Source of the DNA: Polytrichum commune
Taxonomy: Eukaryota > Streptophyta > Polytrichopsida > Polytrichales > Polytrichaceae
Reading direction: 5' to 3'
Assembly (NCBI GenBank): GCA_950295325.1
Contig: OX485808.1
Coordinates: 19,302,527 to 19,366,526 of the forward strand
DNA length: 64,000 bases
Positions 182 through 60,153 of this stretch are shown piece by piece. The notes under the pieces were generated by a model that was given only the letters and a program-made list of their open reading frames with translations, was not told the origin of the DNA and did not search any database. The position numbers and the translations under genes were made by a program. The stretch's first letter is position 1; every line of letters starts with the position of its first letter.

Positions 182-358
182 TCAATCATGACCATTAACA
201 GCCATGGAGTGGGAGGCTTTCCGACAACGAGGACAAACCCAATTGCCAGAAGGAAGAGTCAAAAGGGGAGGTGTCAAACATGCCATGTGCTATCCACGTT
301 AACAATGGTCGCACAATAACATTGTTGCAGCTCCTTTCTTCTCTCCACACACATAACA
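182..358 (-). other. C-terminal PHD zinc finger of the retrotransposon integrase region, broken by two nonsense codons
   Basis: Reading minus-strand codons from 358 gives CYVC, then CDHC, then (after TAA 299-301, R, G and TAG 290-292) HMAC, a proline/leucine-rich turn and WVCPRC at about 224-241, with a TGA at 182-184. Spacing is C-x2-C, C-x2-C, x4, H-x2-C, C-x2-C, the C4HC3 pattern of PHD fingers. The second stop sits where PHD fingers commonly have tryptophan or another aromatic just before the histidine, so TGG to TAG is the simple explanation. PHD fingers bind histone H3 tails (methylated or unmodified lysine 4). By analogy with chromodomains of chromoviruses it may guide integration, but that is inference. 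Confidence 0.8.
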
Positions 359-3300
359 AGGCAAACCCTGTGGTACAACCGCCAACTCGGGATGCACAGA
401 GCCGTCGATGGGAAGGTGACATGGAGTACAATTCTTTGAATGCTCACGACATTCCCGTCCATCCTTGCCTTCAAGCAATAATATACCACTTGGTAAAACA
501 TCTTTTACCCGCAAAATTGTGCGCCCAGCTTTGACATCCAATGTCGTAGACGCCTCCCGTTGCAAGTAAACATAATCCCCCTTGATAAATATACGAACCT
601 GAGGTCGATAAGCTCCACTGCGGATCCGGGCATACCGTAATGTATCACGATGTTGAGCTATATTTAAGTTCTCCATGGCCATAGGCATGGCCTTTTGAAA
701 GAATTCTGCTCGGTCATGAAGACATTGAGCCCAAACATCTGGATCATCTAAGTCTACCACAGGAGCCAATTTCTCTCGCACAGAGCTAGGTAAAATTGGT
801 TCCCGTCCATACAAGAGTTGGTAAGAACTATAGGATGCCAAAGATGCTTGTCTGCTGAAACGGTAACCCATTGCTATCCATAGTAACATCAAGTCCCAAT
901 CGCGATGGTTGCCATGAAACAACCCATACTTCCGCAAACCGCGCTTGACAGTCTGAACAACTCGTTCAGCTAAGCCATCTGCCTCAGGGTGATCTCTGGA
1001 AATTGTTCGATGATCAATCAAAGCCTTAGTACACAAAGCCTCAAAAGATCCAAAAAATTCTCTCCCTTGATCCGTCAACACCTCTGCATGTGCTCCAAAC
1101 CGTGCCAAAACTCGATCAAGAAATGCCATAGCCGCCAATTCTGAGGAATTTTGGGGAAGAGCCACGAGTTCAATCCACTTACTAAAATGCTCCACCATCA
1201 CAAGTACATACTTTGCCCCACGTGGAGTGATAGTAAGCGGTCCGGCAAAGTCCAAAGACCAACGATATCCCAAGCCCATAATAGGTAAAGGCTGAAGTTG
1301 AGGTGATAAAGTATTAAAACTTGACCTGACCCGGTCACATACTTCACACCTAGAAACATAAGTGGCAACCTGTTGATACATACCAGTCGACCAATATTGG
1401 TTGCGCAACATAGAGTGTGTCCTTCGCACTCCAAAATGTCCAAGCTCCTCGTGGACTTGGCGCACTAAAGAAGCTCTTTGATCTGGCTTTGGAACGATGC
1501 ACCTTGTTCCGTTCGGCCACACACGAAATAACAAGCCGTTTGCCCAACGAAACCTTGTTATTCGATGGCTAACTCTATCTCGCTCCATAGCAGATAGTCC
1601 AAGAGGAAATATCCCTTGTTGAAGTTTGTGCAAGACCGCCTGGTCTTCCCACACATCACTAACAACGAGAGATTTATCAACCTCCTCATCTTGTTCTTTC
1701 ACAAGGATCTCAGCAGCCAATCCCGACATCATTGTGAGATATGTGGCAGCATGCCAACCCGACACTGCCTCACGATCACAATCTCCATGCCACCTGGCTC
1801 CAGTTAAATCCTCATCTGAAGGACTTGGATTGCGAGACAATCCGTCTGCATCCAAGTTGGCAATTCCTGCTCGGTGAACAACTTCAAAGTCATATTCTTG
1901 AAGTAACAATGCCCACCTAGCAAGTTTTCCGGTGAGTTTATCTGATTCCATAAGCCATTTTAAAGGCTGATGATCAGTCACCAAAGTAAATTTTTGCCCA
2001 TACAAATAAGGTCGAAAATGTGCAATGGCCCAAACGGCCGCCAAGGCCTCGCCTTCATAAGAAGAATAATTAGATTCAGCATTATTATTGCTCCTAGATG
2101 CATAAGCCACCACATATTCTTTTCCCTCTTCATCTTTTTGTGTCAATACCGCTCTCAATCCCATTGCACTCCAATCCGTGTGTAATTGAAAAGCTCTAGA
2201 CACATCCGGGCGTCGAAACACTAGCGCTGAACCGAGCCTCTGCTTCAATGTATCAAATGCATGTTGTTGTTCCCGACTCCAAATCCATGGTTGGTCTTTC
2301 CCCGTGAGAATGGTGAGAGATTTGGCAATCAAACTAAAGTTTTTGACAAACCTTCTATAATAATTTGCCAATCCTAGAAATGCCCGAAGTCGTGGTACAT
2401 CACTAGGTGCGGGAATTTTGTGCAAAGCATCCACCTTCGTCTGTTGCACACCAAGACCGCCAGGAACAATCATGTGGCCTAAATAGGGCAATCGATCATG
2501 GAAAAACTTACATTTGTCATGATGTAAACGGAGTCCCCACCGTTGTAGTCGTTTAAATACCGCTTGTAAATGTCTCACATGATCATGTGGACTATTACTA
2601 AAGATGATAACATCATCAATGTAATATCTAGCAAACGGTAAACCAGCCAATAATTGGTCCATCACCCGCTGAAATTCAGCTGGTGTATTCTTGAGACCAA
2701 ATGGCAAAAATTTCCAATAATAAAGTTGATCCTTGCCATCTTTATCAATTCCCCAAAATGCGGTCTTCACCCGATCACCCAACAACAAAGGTAATTGATG
2801 ATAACCAGACCTCAAATCCAGAGTGCTGAAGATTCTAGCAAATTCCAGTGCATCAAACAACTCCTCTGGCATCGGCATTGGATATCGATCCGACTTGGTC
2901 TTGCGGTTGACTGGACGATAATCACCACAAATCCGTTTTTCCGTCCAGTTGCCAAAGATATCTTTCTTTGAAGGCATAACCGTGGCACAAACATACTCTC
3001 CATTGGAGAGTTCAATCAATTCCGCTGCCAATAATTCTTGACATCGAGTTTGAACACCCAACCTTTTAGATGTACTAAGTCTGTACGGCCGTCTGAAAAT
3101 AGGATGGTCGTCCTCGAGTTGAATACGAACAAGTTTACCTTTATATCCTTCAAGATCATGAAGACTAAAGGCAAAACAATTACGGTAAGAGCGAATAAAT
3201 GCCCGTACCTTTCGTGCTTCGACACTAGTAAGTTTTGGCCCCACTTCAATTGGCCAATCGTCAAACTCCGTGGTTTCCTTCTTCATAGAAGGATTGCCAC

Positions 3301-3544
3301 TTGGTGCCAGCACAACATGTGATTGCTAGTCCGTGGAGAGGGCAATACCTTTGCCCCCATCATCTGTACTTGAATCCAAATGCGTATTCTCTCCACTACA
3401 ATCAGTTTGTGTAGCTAAATAGCTACCCACATATGAAGTGTTACCAAGAAATAGAAGTGGAAACATTTTGTGGGCCTCCAACTTTCCAAAATTTTGGGCC
3501 AAAGCCGAAAAAACACGTTGGGCTCGAAACTCTTCCGCAACCTG
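182..3544 (-). CDS. Reverse transcriptase - RNase H - integrase - PHD half of the polyprotein (three in-frame stops)
   Basis: This is in the same frame as the Gag half. TAG at 3326-3328 lies 73 codons after TAA 3545-3547, and an uninterrupted stretch of more than 1,000 residues follows. RT shows FLPFGLKNTPAEFQ and the catalytic YIDD (near 2612-2625). RNase H shows HTDWSAMG and TDHQPLKW. Integrase shows the HHCC finger (HEELGHFG...H...CEVC) and the DDE triad in SLDFAGPL, LTDQGREFFG and HPEADGLAER. A C-terminal integrase segment precedes a C4HC3 PHD finger, which is split by TAA 299-301 and TAG 290-292 before the final stop at 182-184. Together these enzymes would copy the RNA into DNA and insert it. 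Motifs are intact; the stops suggest this copy is not autonomous. Confidence 0.93.
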
Positions 3545-6500
3545 TTATTTCAAAGAAAATAATCCCTCAGTGTCATTGACCTCCATATGATCCTTGGATT
3601 GTGGCTCCATTGCCCCCTGACCATTGTACTCTGTCCTCAGAGGAAGCAATTGGTCATCCATATGTTGTTGAGCAGCAAGACAAATTCCAATTATCCACAC
3701 AATGCTATTGAGATCCATAGCTTGTCCCAATAGGAAACGTCTCTGACCTTCCTGAAGCCCATGAGCAGCCGTGGTGCCTGTATGAAAACCCATGGCGCGT
3801 TCCCGCTCATCTGCCGTAGGCTCATCATGAGTTTGGGATTTTGAATCCCAAACCATGTCTGGTCCACGAGATCGAAATGCGAAAGACCGTGGATATGTCA
3901 CAAAAGTAGGTAGTGCACTTCTCGGAATTCCCACCTTGTTAATTAATGCAAATGACAAGGTGTTATCCTTCGAAACTGCCACGGAAACACGATGATCATC
4001 CAAAATGTCATCCACCTTGCGATTCATAAGGCGGGGAAGGCGGGCGATCGCCGCTGAAAGCACCTGAGGTGATACCAAATTGGTCCAAAACCAACGAGGC
4101 CGATGAGCAAAGGATCCCAAGGATGCAGCATCCAGAAATGTTGGAGTACCCAGAATTTGGTTAATATACTCACCATCCTTCACCACTTTGTGCCGTGTAT
4201 CATCCAATAATGGCACATTTTCAAAAATGTACCCTGGCGGAGTTGATTGGTGGGTAAACCACCATTGTGTCAATCGCATCAAATCCGCGAACAAACTAGA
4301 CCTAGGATCATCCAAACCCTGGCCAGTTCCTGTCCGTGAATGGCCTTGACATGGCCATCCTGCAATAATTAAATCCACGTGGCCCAATCTTCTCAAATCC
4401 TCATCACTAATCATAGTGACATCTTGAGGAAGTTGACCACAACATCCAAGAATGGCAGTGGCTGACAATTGTGCGGGGTACCTCAACAACAATTGTTGAA
4501 TGTGGTGTCGGACGGCTCTGTTGGCTGCATATCCATTATCCACATGAATATATCGCCTAACTGTAATCCCAGCCTCCAACACTACCGCCAAACCTGTGCC
4601 AATGCCCCCAAAGATTTTTACAAGGACAATACCTTCAGGTGGTGGTTGCCAACGAATGGGTTGAGCAAAAGAAAATGAGGATGACGTTGGAGGTGTCTCT
4701 CCAAGCCCCAAATCCGCTACAATGTGTCGACAATGGTCGGATAACTCCTTAGGAGTACGCCATGGTGGAGGTGGATCCTTGAAATGTCGAGCATAAATTT
4801 GTAAAGATGGCAAAATTTGTTGTTCTGCTGCATTACAAGCGTAGTCCAATGTTTCCTCCAACAAAACTGGAGCACAAGGCAAATCCGCAACTGAACCGCT
4901 GCAACCAAATATTGCCTCTGCAACCATAGTCATAGAAGTAGCTGCAAATGCTACAGGAATAAATACCTTCCTGCCATCTCCAGAAGACCATCCCGGTCTA
5001 ATCCATGCCTCTTCAGTCCAATTATCCAAACCAAAGCCAAGTGGATAAAGAGCTTGCTGACCAACAAGTATATCATAGTTGGTAGCATTAGTAACAACAC
5101 ATTTCATTGACAAATGAGTGTAGGTAGGTCCTGCCCCCACATTAAAAATCAAACGTAGAGGTGCCTTGGTGTAGCCTGTTGCACGTTCAGTGCCCCCTAC
5201 TGAAGTCACAATTGTGAATGGACAAGGATCTAAGTTTGCTGGCGTCAATCCAAGACTGTCAAAAAGTCCTTTGCCAATCATAACCGGTTGAGCACCGGAA
5301 TCCATCATAACTCTCAGTGGTGTAGCACGAATAGTAGGCATATCCGCGCGTGAAACGACAAACAAAGATTTGTCGTTCATCAGCCGTACAACTCCAGGTT
5401 GCAAATTATGCCGCTCGTGAGCAGGCCTTGCAGAAATATCTGCAAGATATGCCGCTCCCGCTGCATAATGCAAAAATGACGTGTCCACTGCTGAAATTGT
5501 TGATGGAGGAATATCAATGTGCTTACCAAAAGCAATGATCGCCGCATCCGCAAGGCTCGCTCGTAAATTGGCTAAGTCCTCCACCTCCTCAGCCACAGGT
5601 ACGTCAACAACAGCTTGGGATACTTGAAGGGATGGCAAATCCGCCTTACTTTCCAACATTTTTCCAGCTAAATGGAAAACTCCAGCAGGCTTGAAATCCG
5701 GAGCCATCAACTCCGAACCCGAGAAAATTGGCATATGGAGAATTTTATATGCCAATGCCTGCGTAACATCCTTCGAGATGGAATCTCCATCTCTCAAAGG
5801 TACAGGGTTTTTAGCCCCAACAACAGTGGTGTCTACCAATCCAAATGAGAGAGGTAAACGTGCTTGACCAACTTGATCCGCTGGTCCGGCATGGCAAGGA
5901 TGTGACACCTCGTTGCTACCACCACTTGTAGAAGCCATCGCATTTGCCAATGTTTGTGATCGAGTAGAAGCCGCAGCCACCACCTCTCCAGATGCCCCAA
6001 ACATATACATGTCCGAACCCGAGGTGCCACCATCCGCATGCGGCTCAGAAATTTGAGCAAAAGATGCAGAAGATTTGAGCTTTTGTTCGAGCTCTGCCAC
6101 CTTAGCCTCAAGACTCTGCTCCCTTGGAAATTTGCCAGTGACATAACTGGCAGGCCGCATCTCAGGATGAAGTTGGAAACAATGATCCACATCGTGATTA
6201 ATGCCACCACAATGGTTACATTTCAATTGTCTCTTATTAGAATTGTCCCCTGCCTTTACCGGTTCTATCTTTTGTTTTAATTTTCCCAAAGGCTGAGTGT
6301 TCTTCTTCTTAGGACAATTGGGATCATTCTTCGAATGACCAGCTTCTCCACAACCCCAACAATGCAAAATCTTTTGCTCCTTAACGGGTTGAGTCTCAGC
6401 TAAACTACTAGTAGCTGTGACAATTCTTCTTGATTTTGTACTCTCTGTCATCCAAGATACCATGTTTGTGGCATCGTGTTGACAGAGAGCCCGATCACAT

Positions 6501-7423
6501 CTCTTAACCACGGCAAACGCTTGTGCAAGCGTAGCTCTGCCTTCGTAGTCGAGGATAATCCGAGGTGATGCCAACTCAAATAGCCGCTTGTCAATCTTAG
6601 ACAAAAAGATTTTGACAAGCTGACTCTCAGCAAAAACACCTCCCGATTCAACAGCAAAGCGTGCGAGTCGCGTATACATGGTCCGTGGAGTGTCATCCTT
6701 CTCTCGGCAGAAATCCTGAATGCGCTGCATATGGTCTCGCCGAAACCCACCATACTCCACCTCCAAATGTGCGACAAATTCAGCAAGGGGATTAAATGGA
6801 GGTGGTGGACCAATAGCCGTCAATGCTGCCTGTGTAGCACGTGCCATCCGTGAAAGGGTAGCCGTGCTACTGCCAGCCACTATTGGCCCAAACGCCAGTT
6901 CTTGGTCCTTAGACTCCTCCGGTGGATCCTCCTCCTTTAAGGTGGGTGGAGCTAAGGTGGCAATCGCCCCATCTTTAAGGGCTGAAATAAGCTCAACCCG
7001 GGCCTCCCAATACTGCTCCACCTCCCGAAGTTGTCGCTGATGACCCTCTATCCAGCGTTCGTAAGTTTGGAGTGCCTCATACTCCAAATGCTGAGGCAGA
7101 AGTTCAAAGGCATACCAATCATTGAAATTGGAAGACCTTTGACGTTTCTCCTTAATCCAGGTACGAAATCAGAGTTTCCAATCGGGCAAGGAAATGCCCC
7201 CAGCTCGACCTGAGAACCGATCACGCACTGAACCGTGGTGATTGTCGTCCATTTCGTTGAACGTGCCAACACTCCAAATCCGAAGCCTACTAGTAGTGTC
7301 CAACGCCGAAATAGGCTCAAAAGCCTCGTTGGTGTCTACCTCTGGCTCAAGATTTGTGGTATGCACGTCCTCCAAGTAATCTGGTGATGGAGATCGATAA
7401 TATCGGCTCCTAGTTTGCACCAT
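3545..7423 (-). CDS. Gag - aspartic protease - C5-cytosine methyltransferase half of the retrotransposon polyprotein (one in-frame TGA)
   Basis: The start is the ATG at 7423 (MVQTRSR...). An in-frame TGA at 7169-7171 separates the first 84 codons from the rest, and the frame continues as coding on the other side. A Gag-like helical region lies around 6850-6450. Two zinc knuckles follow: CWGCGEAGH...C (one residue longer than usual in its last spacer) and CNHCGGINHDVDHC (canonical CCHC). The protease has the active-site motif DSGA at 5291-5302 (residue about 708). The methyltransferase follows at about 4665-3620. The half ends at TAA 3545-3547, but the codons beyond stay in frame and read as protein into the polymerase half, so the stop is either a nonsense mutation or a Gag-Pol readthrough stop. 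Capsid, protease and methylation roles are inferred from family; the order Gag-PR-MTase-RT is read directly. Confidence 0.88.
3620..4665 (-). other. C5-cytosine DNA methyltransferase domain inside the retrotransposon
   Basis: The conserved motifs of C5 methyltransferases occur in order. Motif I is FGGIGTGL (4594-4617, S-adenosylmethionine binding). Motif IV is GWPCQGHS (about 4338-4361), with the PCQ catalytic cysteine intact. Motif VI is FENVP (about 4208-4222), with the catalytic glutamate. Motif VIII-like HRPRWFW is at about 4085-4105. A variable stretch that would be the target-recognition region follows, then motif IX-like ERERAMGF and motif X-like LGQAMDLNSIVW. No nonsense codon falls inside the domain. 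These enzymes transfer a methyl group to C5 of cytosine in DNA. The domain sits between protease and RT, where it would be cleaved from, or packaged with, the particle. Target sequence and activity cannot be read from the DNA. Confidence 0.93.
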
Positions 7424-7585
7424 AAAATAATCACTTGAGTACCGGCAACTATCTACAAAGTAATGGCAACCTGCACCTGTTGCGGGCTATCTAAATGGCA
7501 ATCCCTTGCCAAATGCCAAGTGTTTATTTAGGCCCCCATAATTCCAAAATTGTGCCAAGGTTTGAGATTGGTAATTAAAATTAAA

Positions 7586-8017
7586 AAAATCAGCGTTGAA
7601 AATGTTAATTTCCAAGGTGATTATGGACTCCAATCAACAAACTAATTGTACCAATGGACTCCTAGGAAGATTTCACGCAAATTAGGCTCAAATTTCATTC
7701 CGTTCGGAGTTAATTTGCTCCCAAAAACAAAAATCAGCGTTGAAAATGTTAATTTCCAAGGTGATTATGGACTCCAATCAACAAACTAATTGCACCAATG
7801 GACTCCTAGGAAGATTTCACACAAATTAGGCTCAAATTTCACTCCGTTCAGAGTTAATTTGCTCCCAAAAACAAAAATCAGCGTTGAAATTAATAATTTC
7901 AGCAATGATTTTGAATTCCAATCAACAATCCAATTACACCATTGGATTCCTTGGCAAATTTCACACAAGATAGGCTCAAATTTCACTCCAATCGGAGCTA
8001 GTATGCCCCCAAATTTG
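7586..8017. repeat. 144-bp tandem repeat, three copies, upstream of the retrotransposon coding frame
   Basis: The marker CAGCGTTGAA begins at 7591, 7735 and 7879, exactly 144 bp apart. The first two units are nearly identical; the third is more diverged. Each unit contains a GGACTCCTAGGAAGATTTCA-like stretch. The array lies in the presumed 5' leader or LTR of the minus-strand element. Confidence 0.93.
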
Positions 8018-8265: not shown

Positions 8266-9022
8266 AATTAAAAACAAATCGGATTTGAACTAAAAAAAAT
8301 TAAAACTAAATCGGATTTGATTAAAAAAAATTAAACTTTGCTTCCACAATTTGCAAGCAAGAAAGATGTGACTTGAGATTCCATTTGGTCTCAAGATTCA
8401 ACCATCAACAATTCAAGAAAACACAAAGACACAACAAAAAAGATGTGGAGATTTTTCTCAAAATCTTCTTGAGGGTTGCAAGGAATTGCAAGCTAAGCTT
8501 TCATACACTTATATCACTCATTTGCTCCCACTACTGGGCCATTCTAGCTCAGAAATACAACCAAAAATGAAAAATAAGCCATTGTTGTCAAGTATGAGGG
8601 TTTCTCTCTCCAAGCTCAAGAAACTAAGAAGTCTTCTTAGAAAGCTTAAGAAACTCTGAAATTCACACACAAGAATCAAGCTATCTCTCACTCCACAAAG
8701 GGAGAATCCAAGAGTGCAAGTGATGGAGAAAGAATGCAAAGGCTTTACTCATGATCTACTACACCATAGCCATAAGATAGCAACAACAAGCTCTCTCTCT
8801 CTCTCAAAACACACTCACAAGACTTTACTTGACAACAATGGCAAGTCAAGATGCCTTCCTCTCCACATAACCCCAATCCTATGTGGATTTCATCCATGGA
8901 GTGGATGAACAACTAACTAGGACTCCCAATGGAGTCCATCACTCATCCAAACACACATGGACTCCTAATGGAGTCCATTTACTCCTAATTTGACGTGACT
9001 TAGCCCCCGATGTCAACTCACG
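8266..9022. other. Non-coding AT-rich stretch, no gene seen
   Basis: It contains two short A-rich direct repeats around AATCGGATTTGA (8278-8320) and two near-identical small palindromes built on GGACTCC...GGAGTCC (8919-8937 and 8958-8978). It is possibly LTR sequence of the minus-strand retrotransposon, but no boundary could be proven. Confidence 0.4.
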
Positions 9023-9059
9023 TGACACAACCAAGGTTGCTGGACTTGTATTTCTGATG

Positions 9060-10036: not shown

Positions 10037-11031
10037 TAGCCTAAGGTAACACCACGGGCTTCCCCCATTTATATTACCTTGTTCCCTCTCAAATCCCCTG
10101 ATTAAGTCCCTCCACGCTTAGATTAAGCCTCGGGACCACCGAAGTCACCTTGCTGGTTTGCTTAGGCAGCCAGCAATCTTACACTGAACCAACTTAGGAG
10201 TAGCCGTCTGCACACTGAACCAGCTTAGGCAGCAGTCTTCACACTGAACCAGCTTGGGCAGCAGTCTTCGCACTGAACCAGCTTAGGCATCAGTCTTCAC
10301 ACTGAACCAGCTTGGGGCAGCAGTCTTCCCACTGAACCAGCTTGGGGAGCAGTCTTCGCACTGAACCACCTTAGGCAGCAGTCTTCACACTGAACCAGCT
10401 TAAGGCAGCAGTCTTCACACTGAACCAGCTTGGGCAGCAGTCTTCGCACTGAACCAGCTTGGGGCAGCAGTCTTCACACTGATAAGTAATCTCCACAATG
10501 AATCCCCTAAGCCCTAACTAATTCCAATAACCTTCCCCAACTTCCTACCTAATTTCTCTAATTAATTGCACTAAATTCCCTAACCCCTACTTACCTAACT
10601 CACACATTCTTCTTAGCTCTAAGAGCTCCAAAATCCTAGAGAGGAGAGAGAGAGGGGGGGGAGGAGAAGAGCGAATGAAGAGAGAAAAGGAGAAGGAGGA
10701 GAGGGCACCCAAGGCCACAAGCCCCTTCACAATCCCCTACTTAGTAGGACCTAATCCTATCCACTAACCTTCACCCTTTAACCAACAAGAGCATGTTCTA
10801 ATTCTAACATTTTAATCAAAGGACCTTACCCTTGCTTCCTCAAACACTACTCACAACACTCCCTAATATCATTAAGCTTCTACTTAACCACTCAAAATGG
10901 CTTAAAGCCTAAAATATAAATCCACACCAAGCCTCATTCTTTTTATACTTTTGATTGTTTCAATAACACTCCAATTGCAATTCTAAATAAATTCTAAACA
11001 TAAAACAAATATGAGCGCTCATTTTGGGTTC
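10037..11031 (-). repeat. Truncated inverted copy of the TGTGAGCC LTR-like family
   Basis: Read on the minus strand it starts near 11,031 with TATGAACCCAAAATGAGCGC, a diverged match to the family start TGTGAGCCCAAAATGGTGCC. It shares the AATGAGGCTTG-type motif with the copy at 12,183-14,246. It contains the 29-30 bp minisatellite and then stops at 10,037, lacking hairpin, small ORF and terminal box. It abuts copy 1 tail to tail. A purine-rich run (10,638-10,705) and a pyrimidine-rich tract lie inside. Confidence 0.55.
10182..10487. repeat. Minisatellite of 29-30 bp, about eleven units
   Basis: The marker ACTGAACC begins at 10182, 10213, 10242, 10272, 10301, 10331, 10360, 10389, 10419, 10448, with ACTGATAAG closing at 10478. 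Intervals alternate 29 and 30 bp. Units read ACTGAACCAGCTTAGGCAGC then AGTCTTCAC with point changes. The CAGC core resembles the cores of the 34-bp and 46-bp arrays in sister copies. Confidence 0.95.
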
Positions 11032-11474: not shown

Positions 11475-12314
11475 ATATTCATGGACCATGATTCTTGGAT
11501 CAACTTTGAACAAATAAAATTTTAAAAATCAAAATAAGGTATAACTTTATTCAACTGATGAGTTGTGTTCAATTGCCCTAACTTCAAATTATATTTGAAG
11601 CAATGGAATTATGGTATCCGGAGTATTTATTCTCAAATCCATATCTAGGCGCATGAACATAGCTCCTTAACTGAGTAATGTTATGGGTTTGAAAGAGGGG
11701 CTAATCATGCCATCATGACATTCATGGAACTTGATTCTTGGATTGACTTTGAATAATTGGTATGGATGGCTAAAGCTAACTTATAACTTAGGTAATATTG
11801 AAAAGGGCTCTCAATTCCGACATAAAATAATTATTCTTCCCTTGAGTTTTGCAATATGTCAATCTTACATTGGTTAAGACCGATTTGAATCCCACATGGA
11901 AACTACATTCTAGCATTTGTAAAGATGAAATAAATTGCCTTCTATGGTAATCGAGACTCAAAGAACATTGTCGTGCTTAGGCCTGATGTTAATAATTGTA
12001 TAACCATTCTCAATATTAGAATCATTGAAAAAAAACCCTGGCATATACACCATAGTAGTAGGAAGGCCAATTCTTTTATGTCCATGGCATAGACGGGCAA
12101 GCATGACATGTGTGGTCCATTGGGGCCACCTATGTCATAAATTAATCATCTTGGACTTGTCTTTATTTTGGGCACAACCATTTGTGAGGCCAAATCTACC
12201 ACCCTTAAGCGTTCTAGTCCGGGTAATAGGTTTCGAGATCACATGTGTAACATAACAACTTGTGGTAACATGGGATGTACGTTCTACCTTAATGAGTTTC
12301 TAACTTAATTCAAA

Positions 12315-12503
12315 TCATGATATTTTATTAGTGTGAACCTCGTACATAGACACATCCTTGGCTTTTTCCAGAGCCCATCCCACTGCTTTTGCCACGCATG
12401 CCTTCAATGATTTCCCCCTTGCAACTTTGGTTTTGGCTGTCGATTCTTCACTGGTGCATGACACCTCGCTGAGGCTATGATGTGTTGATTCCATGAGGCA
12501 CAT
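12315..12503 (-). CDS. Small conserved ORF inside the solo LTR (62 residues)
   Basis: Minus-strand ATG at 12,501-12,503, stop at 12,315-12,317. It contains RGKSLKACVAKAVGWALEK and ends HTNKIS, matching the plus-strand ORF at 9739-9903 residue for residue over most of the last 37 positions while the DNA has diverged. It lies downstream of the LTR's TATA box (13,616-13,625) and of a hairpin at 12,517-12,534, so an LTR transcript could encode it. The N-terminal 25 residues do not match the other copy. Function unknown; it could be an LTR-encoded accessory protein or the remnant of an exon. Confidence 0.5.
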   Translation of the reverse strand: MCLMESTHHSLSEVSCTSEESTAKTKVARGKSLKACVAKAVGWALEKAKDVSMYEVHTNKIS

Positions 12504-12744
12504 AAGTTTTAATACAAGTGTTGAAAAACACTTATATAACTTAACATTACCTTCTCTTCCACAAGTCCCTCACAAATCCTTCTCAACTTCATCTCATAAT
12601 ACAACCACTAACCCAACTAGCCTAACCCTCTAGCCTAACCGAATTAGACTAATTAACCATCCTCACTAACTACAAGTAACTTAGCTTGTTGATCTAGCTT
12701 AGACTCGGGAGTGCACAACTAGTTGGAACTAGATTCCTCCTTAA

Positions 12745-12895
12745 CCCATTCGCTAAATCTAACTGGCTCTACTTAAACCAGCCGCTAAGCCTAACTGCCT
12801 CCAACTTCAAACCAGCAGCTAAGCCCGACTGCCTCCAACTTCAAACCAGCAGCTAAGCCGACTGCCTCCAACTTCCAACCAGCAACTACAAGGTT
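12745..12895. repeat. Minisatellite of about 34 bp, about four units, in the solo LTR
   Basis: The marker ACCAGC occurs at 12,777, 12,810, 12,845 and 12,878. Units read AAACCAGCAGCTAAGCCCGA followed by CTGCCTCCAACTTC. Confidence 0.85.
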
Positions 12896-13615
12896 GAATG
12901 CTTTAAATTTAACATGAATCTAGATGCTACAATTCTAAATGTCATAATTCTAAACACTATAAATTTAAATGATATAAGTCTAAATTCTATAAATTGAACA
13001 CAACGAGCTAAGCTCAAAATGCCTCAAACCAAAGATTACTCCTAATAAGTGTCAACTAACTTCAAGGATAATTAGTCTTCACGGGGGGATCACACCCCTT
13101 TACATTTCATAACCACGTGCGATAAAAGTTTGCTACCCTATATTACATGCCACAGATAATTTTTAAAATTATGATATTTTTTCTACATACACATAACTAT
13201 TGATAATATCTTTTGTATATATTTTTTAAATTTTTAGTCATCTTCATTTTTTGTAGTAATTTGTTTAGTTCAATGTTGTGTCATTCTAGTTAGAAACGGG
13301 ATGTTTTATAAAAAAAACAAATCATCAAATTTGGTTACCAATTTTTACTATGTAATAGATACTATGTATATCTACTCATGAAAAAAAAATCATAAAATTT
13401 TGAACCATTTTGGTGATCTTTTATGTAAAAAGTAGATTTTGTTTTATCGCACATGGTATTCAACTTGACAATGAAGTGCACCCCCCGTGATAGTCTTGGT
13501 TTTTTACCTTGAGACCTTGCACACACACGTGCTTCTTTCTTGTTTCCCATACACCCACACTCATAACACGTGGGGTGCCAAGGAGCACAAATGAAAGAGA
13601 GAGGGGAGAGTGAGG

Positions 13616-13625
13616 ATTATATAGT
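13616..13625 (-). promoter_or_regulatory. TATA box of the solo LTR
   Basis: Minus strand ACTATATAAT, followed by a pyrimidine-rich stretch and GCTCCTTGGCACCCCACGTG. The same block occurs at 22,292-22,301 in the plus-oriented sister copy. Conservation in two copies and position between LTR start and small ORF support a promoter. Confidence 0.55.
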
Positions 13626-13638
13626 GAGGTGAAAAGGA

Positions 13639-13990
13639 GTAGGTGAGCAACCCCAAGGCTCAAAATAAACCTTTTGATCATTTCTTACTTTGTAGGCTCT
13701 CATCATATCCTTTAAGCCTTCAAGGGAGTAGGTGAGCACCCCCAAGGCTCAAGATAAACATTTTGATCATTTCCTACTTTATAGGCTCTCATCCTATCCT
13801 TTAAGCCTTCAAGGGAGTATGTGAGCATCCCCAAGGCTCAAGATAAACATTTTGATCATTTCCTACTTTATAGGCTCTCATTCTATCATTTAAGCCTTCA
13901 AGGGAGTAGGTGAGCACTCCCAAGGCTCAAGATAAACCTTTTGATCATTTCCTACTTTGTAGGCTCTCATCCTATCCTTTAAGCCTTCAA
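13639..13990. repeat. 89-bp tandem repeat, four units, in the solo LTR
   Basis: GTAGGTGAGCA (one copy GTATGTGAGCA) begins at 13,639, 13,728, 13,817 and 13,906, exactly 89 bp apart. Units contain TTTTGATCATTTCCTACTTT and are over 90 percent alike by eye. A single related unit is found in the sister copy near 22,180-22,290, so the expansion is specific to this copy. Confidence 0.95.
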
Positions 13991-15249
13991 CTCTTAAACC
14001 AACAACATAGATCCTAATTCAAACATTTAATTCAAGGAGCCACCCTTGGTTCACCACACACTATGCTCACCTAACTTAGGAACTTTCTTCACACCGCTAA
14101 ACTTTTAATCAACCTAAGGTCTAAACATAACTTCATTCAAGCCTCATTCTTTTTATATTTTTGTGAATAATCATAAAACATCAAAACATAACTTCTAATA
14201 GTTTCAAAGGGTTAAGAACACATGTGGGCACCATTTTGGGCTCACACCATTCTCAAAATTTTATTTTAAACATTGCCATATTGTTCATTTTGACATGGTA
14301 TTTTTGGGTGGTAATTAATGTTAGTAAATTTTGTTGGTAATTTTTAAAAAATAATACAACATAATATTTTTTCTATTTTAGTGCGTCTATATTGGATGAA
14401 TGAGAGACACACTTGTATACGGTAATGTTCTCTCTCACGTTGGTGATTACTTAGGAAGGTAGCTCACACCTAGATGTAGAAGACCTCTAAAACTACACAA
14501 AAATAAAACATTCATTCACGGATATTCAATAACGAGCCACTTGGGGCCGAGGCCCCTCCGTTGGTGGGAGGAGGAGGCCCCTCGTAGGAGAGGCAGTTCA
14601 TTTCATGATCGGCGACTCGATAACAAAAATAAATAATTAAACGAATGACTTAGATTGATATCCAAGTAGTCATTGATTTTGGTCACGGTTTTTGCTATTT
14701 AACTTCTTAACTATTTATTGAAACTAGTCAAATAGACTCCATGTGTCTCATGGCTTTCAAATATGGTGATCTTGTAAATACATTTTGGAATAAAGTAGGT
14801 ATGTGAGTGATTTTTCATGTTTACTGTTGGTAATTTATTCCTTGTTGTTGATGGGCTTATACTTGTGGAGTTGTTGAAAAATGCAACGTTGCTTTTACAA
14901 ATGGCAGTCTAAAAATCATAAAATTCAACAAGTGATGATTGATCATTTCCCATCAAAGCTCAAGAATCTCCTAATTTGGACTCATGTGATGTATAGAAAT
15001 AGGTTTGCTTGCTACGATGCTTAGATGCCTCACAAGCTGAGGATAAGAGCAACATATGTAATAATCATAATTAGATTACATGAATATATACAGTAACAAT
15101 GCTCTTATTGACATAATATTTGCTTCAAGTTCTAGATAGCTAGGTTCAGTTGGGTGCAAAGGTGCAAAAGGTATTGATTGGAAGGTTGTACCATAGCTAC
15201 AAAAGTTTACAAATTGAAGACATGGAAGATGGTCAGTTCTGATTGTAGT

Positions 15250-15543
15250 ATGACATGATTTCCACAATGTGACAAAGTCTTGCTTTCCAAGACCTTGCTT
15301 GTCGGAAGAACCTTCTTTCATAGTCTTTCCAACGCCTTTGAAAGTGTCCCCTACTTTCTCCATTGTTTTGTTATTTGTTGCATCTTTAATAGCATTTTAT
15401 GTATCCTTTACTTTATCACTGATGGTATGTACTGCTTGCTTCGCCTTCTCTTTCACACCTTCAGGCTCTTGTAGTTCGTCCCTCACCAATTGCGTTTGAT
15501 CCGGATATGCTCGATGTTTATCCCAAGGATTATAATTTTTTTG
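15250..15543 (-). pseudogene. LEA-like amphipathic-repeat coding relic inside the long-armed element
   Basis: On the minus strand a frame beginning near 15,543 reads NYNPWDKHRAYPD, then a lysine-rich amphipathic stretch (KEKAKQAVHTISDKVKDT), an in-frame TAA at 15,397-15,399, then NAIKDATNNKTMEKVGDTF and KGVGKTMKEG. Regular lysine/alanine/glycine/threonine spacing resembles group 3 LEA proteins, which protect cells during desiccation. The match is to a general pattern and not to a particular gene. Its place between inverted transposon arms suggests a captured host gene piece, which is inference. Confidence 0.4.
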
Positions 15544-16727
15544 TCATTTTGAACCCTCGGTCAAGGTTTCTTTCTTTCTTTCTCCTTTTTTTTTTCCCTC
15601 CCCAATTTGATGTGACCTAATTATGAAAACATTAACAGCAAACTTGGAAGGGAAATTTTTGGTTGCACCCCATGGCATGCACCATGAACTAAAATGGCTT
15701 TTCAATTAAGTAATTACAATGTTTTCTAACAATCTATTGCCAATTTGATTTTATAAAACAATTGTGAGATTTTCACATATTTTTGGATGAAATTGTCAAA
15801 TTTCTAGTTTCAAATCATAATAACTAGGTTTCAAGTCATGAAACCGCCAATTTGGAATACATGTATACAATTTTGGACAATGTTTTATATTATCATCCAT
15901 ATGTGACTTCATCACTCGAAGGATTGTAGGCAGCACTGCTCTCTTGAGGATTTGAAAAGAAAATCATTGGAATTTTACCAATGACCATAGCCAGTACAAG
16001 CCTCCAAGTGTTTGCATCATTAAAAGTGCAAGCCTCAATGGATCTTTTTGCCCTCAATAGAGTAGATAAGGTAATGGTGTGCACTAATAGTTACTTAGTG
16101 TAGGTATAATGTAGGGGTTAGTGAAGTAACCACGTACACTACATTTACTTTAGTGAATAGAATCATGGGATTGAACTTGGCCAAATGAGGCTCCGATCAC
16201 ACCAAACTTTCCGTCTGCTTCTAGCCATGATATTGTTAGGGGATTATGTTGAGAAATAGATGTTGGCCCATTATTACAATTGGAGATGCTGACGGATGGT
16301 GCCAGTAGTGGCTGGTGTGATTAGCCCCTTGAGTCTCACTAGAAGGAGGTAGGGGTACTTTGACATGAAAACCATAGGGCCCCACAACATTAAGAACAAG
16401 GATGAGTATTGTTTAGTGACTTTTCTTCAATATATGGGAGTTGTGTCATTTCTTTGTCACACAAAAGGTTTGTGAAGATTTTCTTGTATTTAGGCTACTC
16501 ATTAGATCTAGATTTTATGTTTACTCATTCAACATGGAATCCATTCAAGCATACTAATTAGATGAACCTTTCATGTACAATATTGATTCTTGAATGTACA
16601 TGAAGTAATGTTCACTCTCTATTAGTTTAGAGATCTTCTTATAGTGATCTATTTCCCCTCTTCCAAATTGTAATATTTTTGGCTACTTGTTCAAGCTTAC
16701 TCGCTAGATTGCATATTTATTATTAAA

Positions 16728-17397
16728 TGTCCGTGAAAGAATGTTTTATTTTTGTGTAGTTTTAGAGGTCTTTTACATCTAGGTGTGAGCCACTTCCTAA
16801 GCAATCATTAATGTGGGAGAGAGAAAATAATCTTGTACAAGTGTGTCTCTCATTCATCCAACATAGAAGCACTAAAATAGAAAACGGTATGTATTGGATT
16901 ATTTTTGGTTGTCACCGACAAAAGTTACTAACAATTCCATGTCAAAATGAAGAATATGTCAATGTTTAAGATAAAAATTTGAGAGTGGTTGTGCCCAAAA
17001 CAAAGACAGGTCCAAGATGAATAATTAATAACATAGATGGCCCCAATGGACCACACATGTCATGCTTGGCCATTTTTGTCCTCTTAATGTCTATGCCAAG
17101 GACATAAAGGAACTAGGCTTCTTACTACTATAGTGTCTATGCCGGGGATTTTTTCAATGATTTTGATTTTGAAAATGGTTGTGCAGAGCTTAGCTTCGTA
17201 AGGCCTAAGCATGACAATGTTCTATGAGTCTCAACTACCATAGAGGGCATTATGTTTCATCTTTACTAGTGCTAGATTGTAGTTTCCATGTGGGTTTCAA
17301 ATGGGTCTGAACCAATGTAAGATTGGCTCATCGCAAAGGTCAAACGAAGAATAATTATATTATGTCGGAATAGAGAGCCCTTTTCAATATTATGGCC
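16728..17397 (-). repeat. Right inverted arm, uninterrupted (empty-site paralogue of the solo-LTR insertion)
   Basis: The reverse complement matches 11,795-12,182 joined to 14,252-14,533. At the place corresponding to the insertion (about 16,985-16,990) it reads GTGCCCAAAAC on one side and AATTTGAGAGTGG on the other, with no interruption. Confidence 0.85.
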
Positions 17398-50665: not shown

Positions 50666-53600
50666 ATGGAGCTGAGCCCCTCAAGGGAAAATTGGGAGGT
50701 TCAGATGTGCTTGAGTAATGCCAAAAGGGCTTGTACGAATGTGATGATGGAGGTTCTTCCATGCTGGAACGAACAACAGTGTCAGTATTTGAAGACAGAG
50801 CTCATGAAGGCCATGGACAACATTCCGGAACACATGCAGGTTGTCACAATTTTTACTATTTATAAAAACTCTTTGAAGTGAAAACATAAACCTAGGCGGT
50901 CTAGATGGTGACCCCTTAGGCTTTATGATTGATGCTTCTAATTAGTTCTAAGAATGACATTTGAGAGTGCAAATCTTTTCTAATTCAGACATAACTGATA
51001 TCAATTGATTCCTCTAGATACCCTCTTTTCAAGCCTGTTGCTCTTCTTTATGAAATAACAAAAGAAATCATCAACTCATTAACAGCTTTAGAATTAGTGA
51101 TTTGGCAAACAACTGCTCTAACCTAGGGGAGAGTTGCCCCCATGGCAGGTTCAGGTTGTTGCTGCGAAAGAGTTTGAGTGCGCTGTGTCAAGAGCTGACA
51201 ATCTCCTCAAACAGTGCAGTTACGAGAATTGGCTCCTCAAAGCTGTGGAGATGGGGGACAGTGGGGAGCATTTTGTGGAGGTGTTGCTGGACTTGCACTT
51301 GGCCACTGACTTGGTGCGGTGGGGCTCCCGGAAAATGGAACTCGAGGAGATGCTCAGTAGCTGGCAAAGATGGCTGGAAGCTTTTCAAGAGGAAGGGATA
51401 AATTTGCGTGTCTGCAGGGAGGATGATAAGAGGAGGTTGTTGGAAAGGGTGAACGAGGAAGTCAACAACTCCAACAAGCCAAAGGAAACCGAGAGGCTCC
51501 TTGCATGCCTTCTCCTGCACCGATACCGTCTAAACTTCTCATGGCACCCGCCCGAGCTCGAAACTTACGTCCGGAAATTCCAACTCAGCACACGGACGAA
51601 GAACGTTTCTTCGGATGGACCTATGGTGGTTGTCAAGTTCCCGTGGATGGGTAGGCAGTTTGCTCTAAAAATGCCGCTTCCTCGTGTTCAGCATGATAGT
51701 GATATGCTCAGCAACGAAGCCACCCTCCTTAAGAAATACGGCAATCCATACATTGTCGGATTTGTCGGCCACTGGGAGATTGTGGTGACACGGAATCATC
51801 GATGGGGCTTTCAGGAGTCGTCCTCCATTGTAAAGGTGGTGCCGCTTCTCTTGATGGAGAACATGCAAATTACTGTTAGAGAGCTCCTGGACAAGGTTCA
51901 AGGGAGGCGACACAATGACATGAATGAAAGAGGTAAGTAAACGTGATGAACTGGTTGCAATATTCCTTGTGTAAGGTGAGTTTTGTTGTTCTACCACTTT
52001 TGTTGGCCTTCCAAACTCAAATATATATTTGATGATTCTCAAATGTATGAGGAGTATGCAACAATTTCATTATTTAATGTTCGTATAAATTTCCTACACA
52101 ATGTTGAAGTACATGTACCACATTTAGGGCTAGACACCTGCCTCTTTTTGATTTGGGCTCCCACCACTATTACTGAGGTAAAGGAGGGGGTCAGAAAAAA
52201 CATGACCCCCATAGGTTTGTGGTTCAAAGTGGGTCTCTATAGACTAACTAGAACCTGTGGTTGGGAAAGGGAGCTCTAGGTTTATCTTCAGCGTGGTTTG
52301 ATAGCAATATATTTTTAAAATTATTGTTATTTAAAATTTTAAAATTATTTAATTTACTTTTAAAGATTTGTTTTGTCTGATTGAAATTGCCTTTAAAGTC
52401 CAAGAAGCCGAAAAGGCTAATGGGATTGAAAGTACATCATGATGGTTTTTAATCAACTAATTCTCTAGAGTGGTAGAGTGCGGCAACCTCTATGAAATAG
52501 AGGCTAATGCCAATTTGGTGGTTCAATTGAAAGAAAACAATTGTCAGCTTATTTTGAAAATAATAGACACAATTTTCTAGAATTACTTTCATTCACCTTA
52601 CGCTTTTGCTGGAATAAAGTAAACTATCACTCTACAAAAAATTATGTAGTGTTAATAATCCACGGTAAGGTACTACATAGAGGAAGGGTTCGCCGTCTAT
52701 TCCTAGTCGTCTTTAGTCATTGCAAAGAATATGGGTTAACATGAAATTGCAAGACTATGTACCAAGAACTTGGTCTATGTCCTTAATACATTTTTGAACC
52801 CCAATTCCACATAGAAGATGCACTTGTTGGAATTATGTCCAAATAAAGAAAGTTGGTACATGAAACAAAGTACTATGTCCAAGAATAACTTTGTGATTTG
52901 AAAATTTTGTGCAAAAGATATGAATGAATTTCACCAAGCATTTTCAAGAAGTGAGGAGGTTTGAAGAGAAAATGAACACATTTTTGGAGCTAAGAATTTT
53001 TTTTTGGAGTTGTGTTCAATTAAGAAATCCTAGACAATAAAACACAATACCACCTCCAACAAAACAAAAGTGCAATTTGAAGTTTTTATACAAAAGATAC
53101 CGACAAATACATAGAGGTGGACTACTGGGGCTTCATCTCTCAACTTTACATATCCACATGGATTGTGGACACCTCACGGAGAGGACTTATATATTAAAAA
53201 GCATTGGTAATGCAATGTGTAATGTGAACGCCTTATACCTATCCATTAGTTGTATGTGAATTGGCCGGAATTGTGAAAGAGTCATAGGAAAAGTGTCGGA
53301 ATTTTCAAAATTGTTATTTTAAAGCAATAATTTGATGAGGCCCAAGCCTAGGGCATTCTGGGAAATAAGAGCCCAACATTGAGGCATTTCTGGGAAGAAA
53401 ATAGTGACAAGACTTCTTAAGCAGGGGAAAGCCCTTCGGGTCAGAATTTATGAATATTTTGGGCCTGCCCCTCGGGATTCGCCTTCAGGCATGGCCTCAA
53501 TTTTCGTAAGTCCCTCCCCTAAGAGCTTTCCCGTATACTTACTGCATCAAGATAAGAGTGAGTGTTGCAGGGTTGCAACCTTTGCTTTCCTGTAGAGGAG

Positions 53601-54816
53601 TAAGAGCTACTGTAGTGGCAGACAGACTCTACCATGCTGAAGCTCGAACTTAAGTATAAAAGTTCAACAATTAAACATGATGATGGCAGATGTCGAGCTC
53701 ATACAGCTAATTAGAGGACGGAAAATGCGAGCTCTACCCTCTAACCTTCTCGGGCAGCTTAGCGATTGAGTATTGAATACTTTCTCTGAATTGAAGAGCT
53801 AACCATCATCTCTGAACTTGCTGTTTGAGAGCTAACCATCACAGCACTTGCTGGTAGTATCAAAGAATGCTGTCTGGTTGACCAATTAGAGTGTCGGAAG
53901 CTCTTCTCCACGTGGGCCTTAATAGGGTTTGACAATATTTTCCACGTGGATATAGATGGATGTGAATATGACCTGTGGCAAATTTCTTTAAAAAAAGAAA
54001 CGTTTTTTTATTGAACTAGACCTTACTGAAGCAAGGACAGAGCAGCACAATTTCTTTCTAGGATGTTTGCCTGTATGCTGCTCCTTGCCACCATGTTGCA
54101 CCTAATGAGATGAATTGACACCATGTGATTAATCAGATTTTCTTGCAATAAATTATTATTCCTCAGGTCTTTCTCCTACCGAGGTGATCAACCTAATGCT
54201 ACCAGTTGCAAGGGCATTGAACTACCTTCATGGTAAGGAAGTCGCTCACCGTGACTTGAAGCCTCGGAACATCATGTGCACACTCAAGTGCGACAATTTC
54301 AACGATCCTGAACTTCTCAACGAAGTAACGGTGAAGTTGATAGATTTTGGGGACGCTAAGGAATTAGGTGCCCATGGCAATATAATCAGAAAAGCTGGAA
54401 CAACTGGATACATGGCTCCTGAGGTGCACAATCTCACAGATGTTGCAGGTCACACTAATAGCAATGATGATATTGATCTCTTGAAGGCTGACATCTTCAG
54501 TTTTGGGATGGTCTTAGGAGAGGTCTTGACCAAGAGACCTCCTCTGGAAGCTTTGGGGAGCGGCAACCGGACTACCTTCTGGAATAAACTGAAGGGAGGG
54601 GAGAGACCCAACATTCCTGACCACTTTCCATTGGGTTTCATCACTCGAAGCTGTTGGGATGCAAATCCGAGACACCGGCCCCAAGCTGAGGACATCTGCA
54701 GGATGCTGTCCCATGCAAAACTCTTCCTTTCTGACAATGTATTTAGCCCAGATGAGCTGACAAAAGTTTTTTCCTTTGAGGATCATGATGGTGTAATCCG
54801 CAGAGCCTGCAATTAA
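50666..54816 (+). CDS. Plant-type (TKL/RLK-like) protein kinase gene, three exons
   Basis: Exon 1 is 50,666-50,839 (ATG to CAG, phase 0). Exon 2 starts at 51,149 or 51,155 and ends at 51,932 (donor GTAAGT). Exon 3 is 54,167-54,816 (acceptor CCTCAG, stop TAA), with phase 1 joining G|GLSPTEV. About 533-535 residues. The N-terminal half is helical with conserved SRADNLLKQCSYENWLLKA and VEVLLDLHLATDLVRWG. The kinase part has the ATP lysine in QFALKMPL, catalytic HRDLKPRN, DFGDAK in the DFG position, GYMAPEV and SFGMVLGEVLT. The glycine-rich loop is not recognisable (DGPMVVVKFPWMG). The frame is intact, so it is likely functional. The substrate is unknown. The 2.2-kb intron 2 carries a dispersed repeat (52,395-52,535). 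Confidence 0.88.
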
Positions 54817-57657: not shown

Positions 57658-60153
57658 ATGTTGCAGAAGAAAAAGCGAGGTAAGAAGGTAGTACCGGAAT
57701 ACGAGTCTTTCGCAGTGAGCAAATCAACCCGTCCAAACGCTGCGCGCATTGGCAAGACATATGCGGGCAACTCAGTGAAGCGAGGGTGCCAATGTTGTTT
57801 TCTTGCGAAGAAGCCCTATCTGGACCACTCGTTGTGTTTGCTAATTTATGAAAATGCAGAACACTTGAATAAAGCTGGAGAACACTGCCACGGCACCATG
57901 ATCGGTGGATTTAGATATGCGCTCGGTGCTGGTCTTTCAGATGAAATGAAACAAAAAATTGCTCAAATGCATGCCTATGGGTTATCCCCTGCCCAAATCA
58001 TGCAACAACACACCAAAGAGGTTCGTGAGCTTGCCGTGTCTAATGGAGTGGTGACGCGCGACACATTCTTGTTGCCGTCCGACGTCAAAAACATATGTCG
58101 AAAGAGGGCTGAAGACCTGTGGGAGAAACATCCGTCCGACCCGATTAGCGTCCGTATGTGGGCAGCAGAGAATCCAGACAGCGTGTTCTACTACCAAGAG
58201 CACTCGCTACTGGACCTTAATTCTCAAACACAAGACGACTCACCTTTCACCATAGGCATACAAACTGAATGGCAACTTGAAATGATGGCAAACTTCGGTC
58301 ACAACAATGTTCTTTCCATTGACGCCATGTTTGGTACCAGCCAGACTAGGGTAAGCTAATATCTATGTCCTTCATCTTCGTCGTCGTGTTCTGTTATGAT
58401 TTTCTCATACTGCCAGTCAATTTGTTTCAACCATGTTCTGCCCTATGCTAACAATGATGTTCATTGTTTTCTACAGTACCCACTCTACACTGTTATGGTG
58501 TTCGATGATTGGAGAAATGACATACCAATGGCTTTCTTTGTCATTTCGCGGACACGTGAACAAGATCTCCGCCCAGTTCTTCAAGCGCTGCATGACAGGG
58601 TTCAAGGGTTCAAAAATGATTGGTTACCATCCATTATTGTTGACAATGCTCAGGCTGAAATTAACACACTTGGGTAAGCAGTTATTGTATGTTCTGCAAC
58701 TTTTACTTTGTAGTCTCACCCCAATATGTAATGTAGAGTCCTGCATTGCATATTGGTGTTAATTATTAATTCCTCACTGTTACAAGTATTTTCCTCAATG
58801 TTCATCATCTGAGCTCATAATCTGCTGTTTTGTCTCTTGCGCAGTATAGTGTGGCCGCAAGCCAAAATTTTCCTGTGCTTGTGGCATGTCAAGAAGTCAT
58901 GGGCAGAGAACGCCATCAAGAAAATTTCAAGCGTTGCAGAACGCAACACTATTCTTCAAATGCTCGGCGACATAATGTACGGAAAAGGTTGCAAGGTTGA
59001 CGATGATCCTATCGACTGGGCCCTTGACCAACTTGACAATATATCTAATACTCGTCCATTGGCGAGTGCGTTCATGAGATACATGAACGATGTTTGGCGA
59101 GCCAAGACACCAATGTGGTGCGTCGGAGCGCGACGGATACCACATGCAGGACAGAACACTAACGCGGCTATTGAATCCTATCACATCAATTTGAAGAGTG
59201 TTCTAAACTTTGCCAAAGAGAGATTTGTGGGTAGGCGCATGGATTGGCTTATTTATCATCTAACGGGTGACGTTTTGACTCATTACTGGTACAGTGTCCA
59301 ATGCAAAGCATACGGATATATACGCAACAAGAAACAAGAGGGTATTGTTGCATCTGCAATTATGGGAGCCAACGACATACCTGACAGTAATGTCCTCATT
59401 TGTATGGACGAGGATGTTGCATATGTGGGGTCTGTAAACAACCGCCCGAAGGTGTGGACCATCAAATGTCCGGACTCTGAATGGGCACAATGCGACTGCC
59501 CCGTCGCCAAAGAGGGCATGATTTGCAAGCACACCATTAAAGTCTTCAAGATACTTCACCCTGGAATTGAAGATGGTGCCATAGTTCGTGAAGCTGGTAC
59601 ACGACATGGAACTCAGCGCGGCACTCCAATTGCGCGTTGCTACGCAGGACTGTCACAACAGATTACTCAAATCCATGTTCCGGAAGACGTCGGCACGCCA
59701 ATCGAAGTTGAACCTGTGGTGCAAGACAATGTTCTACAAATTGATGTTAATGAAGATCACATCACTCTAACTCCTGTGGACCCTGTGACTGTGGACGACG
59801 AACAGAACCCCTCGCAATTCTCTTCTCAGTTTACCCAGATGGACTCCTTCAATTCGACTCCCCTTTCCCAAGAGAGTTCTTCACAAGCACCTACTGCCGC
59901 AACCGCGCACGACATTTACGCCAGCCTTGCACTCAAGGCTGAGCAACATCCTCTTCTACAAACTCACTTGATCGCTGGCCTTAGGCATATTCGGGGCAAG
60001 CAAAACCAGCTTATTGCACAAGGTGTTACACGGATGCCATTGACTCCTACGACAACCTCGTTTCCAAAGAGGACAGGCGACAACTCTTTAAAACGCCGGA
60101 GGAGTTTCCTGGAGTTCCCGTTGCCGAGGAGAAAGCTTTCTAGCTCCAAATGA
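57658..60153 (+). CDS. MULE transposase with N-terminal zinc motif and SWIM finger, three exons
   Basis: Exons: 57,658-58,350 (donor GTAAGC), 58,477-58,673 (acceptor TACAG, donor GTAAGC), 58,845-60,153 (acceptor GCGCAG, stop TGA). Joints read TSQTR|YPLYTV and NTLG|IVWPQAK. An N-terminal Cys/His cluster (RGCQCCF...H...EHCHGTM) comes first. The DDE core follows: VLSIDAMFGT (first Asp), SIIVDNAQAEI (second Asp), the FLCLWHVKKSW motif and NAAIESYHINLK (Glu). Then a SWIM finger (CDC...CKH, about 59,490-59,532) and a serine/threonine/glutamine-rich tail ending in a basic stretch. The frame is intact, so the enzyme could be active. It lies tail to tail with a ULP1-like gene, as in ULP-carrying MULEs of plants (Kaonashi type). 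Confidence 0.88.

Follow-up and report, generated by a model that had tools for sequence, protein, structure and literature searches.

A methyltransferase-bearing Ty3/gypsy-type retrotransposon family with split direct repeats in the moss Polytrichum commune

The 64,000-nt stretch of Polytrichum commune DNA analysed here (the window) carries on its minus strand one copy of what is almost certainly a family of Ty3/gypsy-type retrotransposons that bear a C5-cytosine methyltransferase (DNMT) and have split direct repeats. The element is real, multi-copy and under selection; it is a relative and variant of the KnitGypsy-Dnmt3 kind, but not KnitGypsy-Dnmt3 itself, since a UAG or UAA codon splits its DNMT from its reverse transcriptase (RT). 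The original prediction that a gypsy-type retrotransposon in this stretch encodes its own C5-methyltransferase is borne out by profile matches, by the order of the motifs and by intact catalytic Cys and Glu residues; the leaky UAG, the damage to the window copy, a PHD finger, the split direct repeats and a second domain order in green algae go beyond it. The kind is already known from algae; this one belongs to a land plant and is laid out differently.

The layout of the family is A, gag-protease-DNMT, UAG, RT-RNase H-integrase-PHD, B, GC, A, B. Self-comparison and comparison between copies place the 5' repeat of the window copy (A1, about 440 nt) at 8588-9027 on the minus strand, with its TGTCACG start at 9027, and its 3' part, B1-GC-A2-B2, to the left of the window start, i.e. 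outside the window. Between A1 and the first frame are three tandem 144-nt repeats (7585-8016; repeat family D3), a unit present twice in other copies. The first open frame (3548-7168) encodes Gag, with two CCHC-like zinc knuckles (6314-6361 and 6179-6220); a retroviral-type aspartic protease (PR; 5048-5332), recognised by its DSGA motif at 5291-5302 and by Pfam matches that fall under the curated cut-offs (E 0.0042 and 0.009); and a stop-free, DNMT3-like C5-cytosine methyltransferase domain (3663-4672). The second (302-3325) encodes RT (2468-2935, YIDD at 2612-2623; RVT_1 5.8e-29), RNase H (1892-2281; RT_RNaseH 1e-37, with RT_RNaseH_2), an integrase (IN) with an H2C2 zinc domain and a DDE core (986-1486; Integrase_H2C2 1.8e-15, rve 7e-13) and the start of a PHD finger (176-361), so that RT, RNase H and DDE integrase follow one another as in gypsy elements; a tyrosine recombinase was not seen, as the Pfam matches include no phage-integrase family and the rve integrase was matched instead. 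The window copy is damaged: a TAA (3545-3547) ends its first frame prematurely after the DNMT, at 1207 codons, and two stops (299-301 and 290-292) lie within the C-terminal PHD finger.

Five further copies, chosen for an open DNMT, were compared. In all five the first frame runs for 1386 codons and ends in UAG, and in four the second frame continues in phase directly after it; in the remaining copy, C2_22.8, the open stretch starts 38 codons further on. Copy C4_4.8 is cut off after the integrase core, and the PHD finger is open in the other four (Pfam PHD 2.5e-11 in the C6 copy).

The window DNMT has motifs I, IV, VI, VIII and X in the normal order, and its best profile match is DNMT3-like (3e-19, as against 3.4e-4 to 9.1e-5 for the tRNA-type DNMT2), so the methyltransferase reading stands when set against an unrelated fold. 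An alignment of 34 relatives shows no variation at the W, P and Q of WPCQ or at the E of ENV; the catalytic Cys, the Asn of ENV and the two Arg of HRxR are conserved in at least 90% of them. Profile and fold-level matches to DNMT3 rule out chance motifs, and the profile ranking rules out that its nearest kin is a DRM or a bacterial-type enzyme; nor is the motif order rearranged, as it is in DRM, the rearranged plant methyltransferase. Single-sequence folding of the domain reached a pLDDT of only 33.5. A scan of viral contigs gave 20 loci with a best segment 30-47% identical, which we assume to be phage methylases.

With the window DNMT as query, the 408-Mb genome gave 108 scored places at 87-100% identity; with human DNMT3A as query it gave 138, of which 99 lie more than 1.5 kb from every window-DNMT place, three host genes being left out. 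Together at least 207 places match the domain, which rules out a one-off insertion; as only the best candidates were scored, this figure may undercount the copies. At four of the 99 added places the DNMT sequence was read (L068, L069, L070 and L073) and at a fifth the neighbouring sequence (L077, L078), while the others are counted on the match alone. These reveal a second subfamily, in which the DNMTs of L068-L070 are 61-63% identical to that of the window and the DNMT of L073, which has two stops, is 57% identical. With three mismatches allowed, the sequence where the 5' repeat meets the internal region occurs 153 times in the genome, and 0 times in the control. The host has two DNMT3 genes of its own, in separate exons, and likely its own DRM gene as well; motif IV of the two DNMT3 paralogs (L071 with L075, L072 with L076) is PCQ, compared with PCN in human DNMT3A.

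In the window copy the in-frame UAG (3326-3328) is followed by CAATCA (the whole at 3320-3328), a sequence that fits CARYYA, the readthrough context of tobacco-mosaic type. Among 26 aligned copies the site is absent in one, and the other 25 have UAG (24) or UAA (1), followed by CARYYA in every case; the one copy of the second subfamily that was read at this point shows UAG CAATTA in the matching position and phase. Because the UAG follows the DNMT, the enzyme would be expected at the level of Gag and protease: the stop probably places the METHYLTRANSFERASE with Gag. The 38 of 294 relatives returned in which PR-DNMT occurs without RT in the same frame fit this layout, and short contigs may account for part of them.

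The ends of the element combine features of two kinds of retrotransposon. Four of six whole loci (window, C6, C5 and C1) read A-coding-B-GC-A-B, as do all eight further 3' ends, taken from a set of 20 copies, in their B-GC-A-B part. Of the other two loci, C4_4.8 is truncated and C2_22.8 reads A-coding-B only; the latter has an exact 4-bp duplication, AACG (L012, L013), and may be a variant or different integration product, or have arisen by B x B recombination. All five copies in which both ends are present begin with TGTCACG and end with ACACGACA, and their 4-bp target duplications are exact in four (GAAG, AACG, TTAT and TCTT) and have one mismatch in the window copy (GTTG/GCTG). TG...CA termini and 4-bp duplications are as in standard LTR Ty3/gypsy elements, but two full direct LTRs are absent: the 5' end is A alone and the 3' end B-GC-A-B. 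From the termini, the duplications and the order of the repeats we infer that a DDE integrase inserts a DIRS-like repeat arrangement. A second-subfamily copy has the order B-A-B, its B copies identical over 106 nt, and its junction is the ACACGACA-GC-TGTCACG of the first subfamily, although much of A is unlike; in both subfamilies a G-run with GGCA at its end directly precedes B. A primer-site search with a few fixed patterns gave one match, outside the element.

Purifying selection on the DNMT is indicated by dN/dS ratios over 26 copies, which put its constraint on a par with that of gag and PR and below that of RT and IN: 0.41 for the DNMT, a value that the choice of copies with an open DNMT may favour, against 0.42 for gag, 0.41 for PR, 0.24 for RT, 0.25 for RNase H and 0.17 for IN. 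The C-terminal part of the integrase gives 0.39, the DNMT tail 0.71 and the PHD finger, over few sites, 0.78. Between subfamilies the DNMT is 61-63% identical, compared with 80% for the 144 residues after the UAG. The family has inserted recently. The A repeats of the window copy differ at 9 of 437 sites, and those of three other copies by 0.5%. CpG depletion, sought as a trace of self-methylation, does not exceed that of the flanks (0.63-0.67 in the elements, 0.42-0.77 in the flanks). Among changes specific to the window copy, 85 of 138 are C>T or G>A, at rates of 4.9% in CG, 3.2% in CHG and 3.0% in CHH contexts, a pattern that host methylation alone would explain.

Relatives are found among streptophytes (Marchantia polymorpha, Calypogeia fissa, Sphagnum troendelagicum and Klebsormidium nitens) and chlorophytes (Monoraphidium neglectum, Haematococcus lacustris and a record labelled Chrzof1, which we take to be Chromochloris). 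Two domain orders separate them. In the named streptophyte proteins of sufficient length the DNMT follows PR, and in the K. nitens protein P0048 it also precedes RT; in the named chlorophyte proteins it follows RNase H and is itself followed, where the protein continues, by IN and PHD. Among the 294 relatives returned, 109 show the DNMT alone, 38 PR-DNMT, 9 the DNMT before RT, 101 RT before the DNMT, and 37 the DNMT before IN in a protein that lacks RT; 111 have a PHD finger at the integrase C-terminus. Two of the retrotransposon-type DNMT proteins, P0066 and P0264, are filed under bacterial bins (Obscuribacterales and Minisyncoccia) and are probably misbinned eukaryotic contigs.

The algal order occupies one side of a branch in both the RT tree (100/99) and the DNMT tree (99/97), and the inner groups of the two trees mostly agree; the RT tree has a single distant outgroup, which has no DNMT, so that one RT clade for the two orders is no more than a possibility. 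In the DNMT tree, whose cellular DNMT3 part consists of three rows, two of them joined from exon pieces, human DNMT3A clusters with the host DNMT3s (99/97), and the DNMTs of the retrotransposons make up a single neighbouring group (86/93, moderate support on long branches) within which the algal order is nested. Because the retrotransposon DNMTs group together with the algal order nested, we lean towards a single ancient capture, after which the domain changed position, over separate captures, though horizontal transfer could also have contributed. A broader scenario is somewhat unlikely on present evidence: a single DNMT3-like capture before the chlorophyte/streptophyte split, perhaps even before the plant/animal DNMT3 split, would have founded a separate class of integrase-bearing, split-direct-repeat retrotransposons. 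In this class both termini would be copied from the internal B-GC-A junction; in mosses a leaky stop would bring the methyltransferase to the level of Gag, in green algae the domain would have shifted to a place between RNase H and integrase; and new copies would be methylated by the time they insert.

The element shares single features with several familiar systems. Its DNMT resembles cellular DNMT3 of plants and animals in fold, motif order and best profile match, but the domain has no intron and, with moderate support, groups beside the three DNMT3 rows and not inside them. Elements of the DIRS/PAT/Ngaro type have the same A-coding-B-A-B repeat order but carry a tyrosine recombinase and are not known to make a target duplication, in contrast to the DDE integrase, the TG...CA termini and the 4-bp target duplications of the moss element. 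Chromoviruses are gypsy elements in which a chromodomain, likewise a chromatin-reading domain, follows the integrase; the moss element has a PHD finger in that place, and a DNMT in addition.

Kinship with the class described by de Mendoza et al. 2018 (PMC5890265), which the original prediction had proposed together with novelty in host, position and partners, is supported, and the novelty holds. KnitGypsy-Dnmt3 of K. nitens is there given as a gypsy RT-RNase H-integrase element with an unrearranged Dnmt3-related domain, intronless and under purifying selection, and a figure legend assigns its repeat structure to the DIRS retrotransposon arrangement, all of which the moss element shares. The differences lie in the host, a land plant; in the DNMT, 41% identical to that of K. 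nitens over 65% of the query; and in the conserved leaky UAG between DNMT and RT, which are in one frame in P0048 (PR-DNMT-RT-RH-IN). SymbioDIRS-Dnmt3 and SymbioLINE-Dnmt of Symbiodinium (PMC5890265) are also retrotransposon-borne C5-methyltransferases in many copies and under purifying selection, but they are of tyrosine-recombinase and LINE type and derive from other acquisition events, while the moss element has a DDE integrase. According to the same paper, Symbiodinium retrotransposon Dnmt3 domains carry out de novo CG methylation in yeast, and the KnitGypsy-Dnmt3 domain gave no methylation there, a result the authors call inconclusive; they argue for independent captures in different lineages (PMC5890265). 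Symbiodinium elements that lack a DNMT spread as well. The words PHD, moss and Marchantia are absent from the main text of the 2018 paper (PMC5890265). Related work comprises Sarre et al. 2025 (PMC12344493), Yaari et al. 2019 (PMC6453930) and a 2019 review of accessory domains (PMC6338049); titles and abstract starts in the open-licence literature, including papers citing the 2018 study, contained no report of such elements in bryophytes or chlorophytes, which does not prove that none exists.

Our best explanation, to which as a whole we give an even chance, is that the methyltransferase of this split-repeat gypsy family acts on the element's own cDNA; methylation of cDNA as the role of the domain is a tentative reading, slightly less likely than not. 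Most ribosomes would halt at the leaky UAG, so that the DNMT would be made with Gag and protease, in excess over RT and integrase. The protease would release it inside the particle, and there or in the nucleus it would methylate cytosines of the new double-stranded cDNA, most likely at CG, as reported for other retrotransposon DNMT3 domains. A new copy would thus join chromatin pre-marked; this may protect it from being handled as foreign, or put it in a state that fits silent chromatin, and the PHD finger might help to choose the insertion site. The internal B-GC-A junction is probably the template for both termini in DIRS-type replication; each end would then carry GC, which the integrase would trim before inserting with a 4-bp duplication. 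Counting against cDNA methylation are the CpG levels, no more depleted than in the flanks, the higher dN/dS of the DNMT than of RT and IN, its faster divergence, the spread of DNMT-less elements in Symbiodinium and the yeast result for KnitGypsy-Dnmt3.

A rival reading gives the DNMT another target. If it acted on host chromatin, it could, with the finger, mark insertion sites or competing elements; the finger is present in the four copies that have that end of the integrase as well as in the 111 relatives, and its PDB matches include the PHD fingers of CHD4, UHRF1 and ATXR5. We regard this as unlikely, however, given that in the moss element the DNMT is encoded before the stop, with Gag and PR and apart from the integrase, and that host-wide action would damage the host. 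It seems similarly improbable that the domain does something other than methylate DNA, such as bind nucleic acid inside the particle or methylate RNA of the element. The layout predicts that the DNMT is co-made with Gag, the RNA-packaging protein, and RNA methylation is raised as a possibility for LINE-type DNMTs in the 2018 paper (PMC5890265), but pure binding would not require the catalytic residues kept in the 34 relatives, and the fold is nearest to DNMT3, with the tRNA-type DNMT2 a far weaker match.

That the domain is a selfish or useless passenger in decay would agree with its dN/dS, the highest among the enzymes besides PR, and with its divergence, faster than that of RT; yet that ratio is well below 1 and equal to those of gag and PR, and the domain is present in both subfamilies and in green-plant relatives from liverworts to chlorophytes, so we consider decay quite unlikely. 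A recent capture from the moss's own DNMT3 would agree with the PCQ shared with the host genes and with the independent captures per lineage argued by the 2018 work (PMC5890265). It is very improbable, and we reject it on the DNMT tree, where the host DNMT3 pieces group with human DNMT3A and the retrotransposon DNMTs beside them; support for that placement is moderate.

In plants, transposons are marked for silencing chiefly by cytosine methylation, and an element with a selected DNMT of its own tests whether the mark can serve a parasite. The relatives in Marchantia and Sphagnum extend this question to land plants for which genetics and methylomes are available, the amount of enzyme per particle is predicted by the leaky stop, and split repeats combined with a DDE integrase pose a concrete question about replication.

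Elsewhere in the window, a large inverted repeat at 11793-17392 (arms of 192, 93, 90, 74 and 60 nt, 83-93% complementarity, centre near 15.6 kb) may be a foldback element or a pair of same-family elements facing opposite ways. A tandem array at 10170-10491 has nine overlapping copies of a unit of about 29 nt (CACTGAACCAGCTT...), and a direct repeat with an 89-nt period at 13633-14077 has four copies in register. Protein-kinase-like motifs, HRDLKPRN and DFGDAK, can be seen by eye in frames at 51134-54816, a candidate host gene. At 57658-60153 two frames on the plus strand, 233 and 438 aa long and with a CxCx...H pattern near the end, look by eye like a MULE/SWIM-type transposase.
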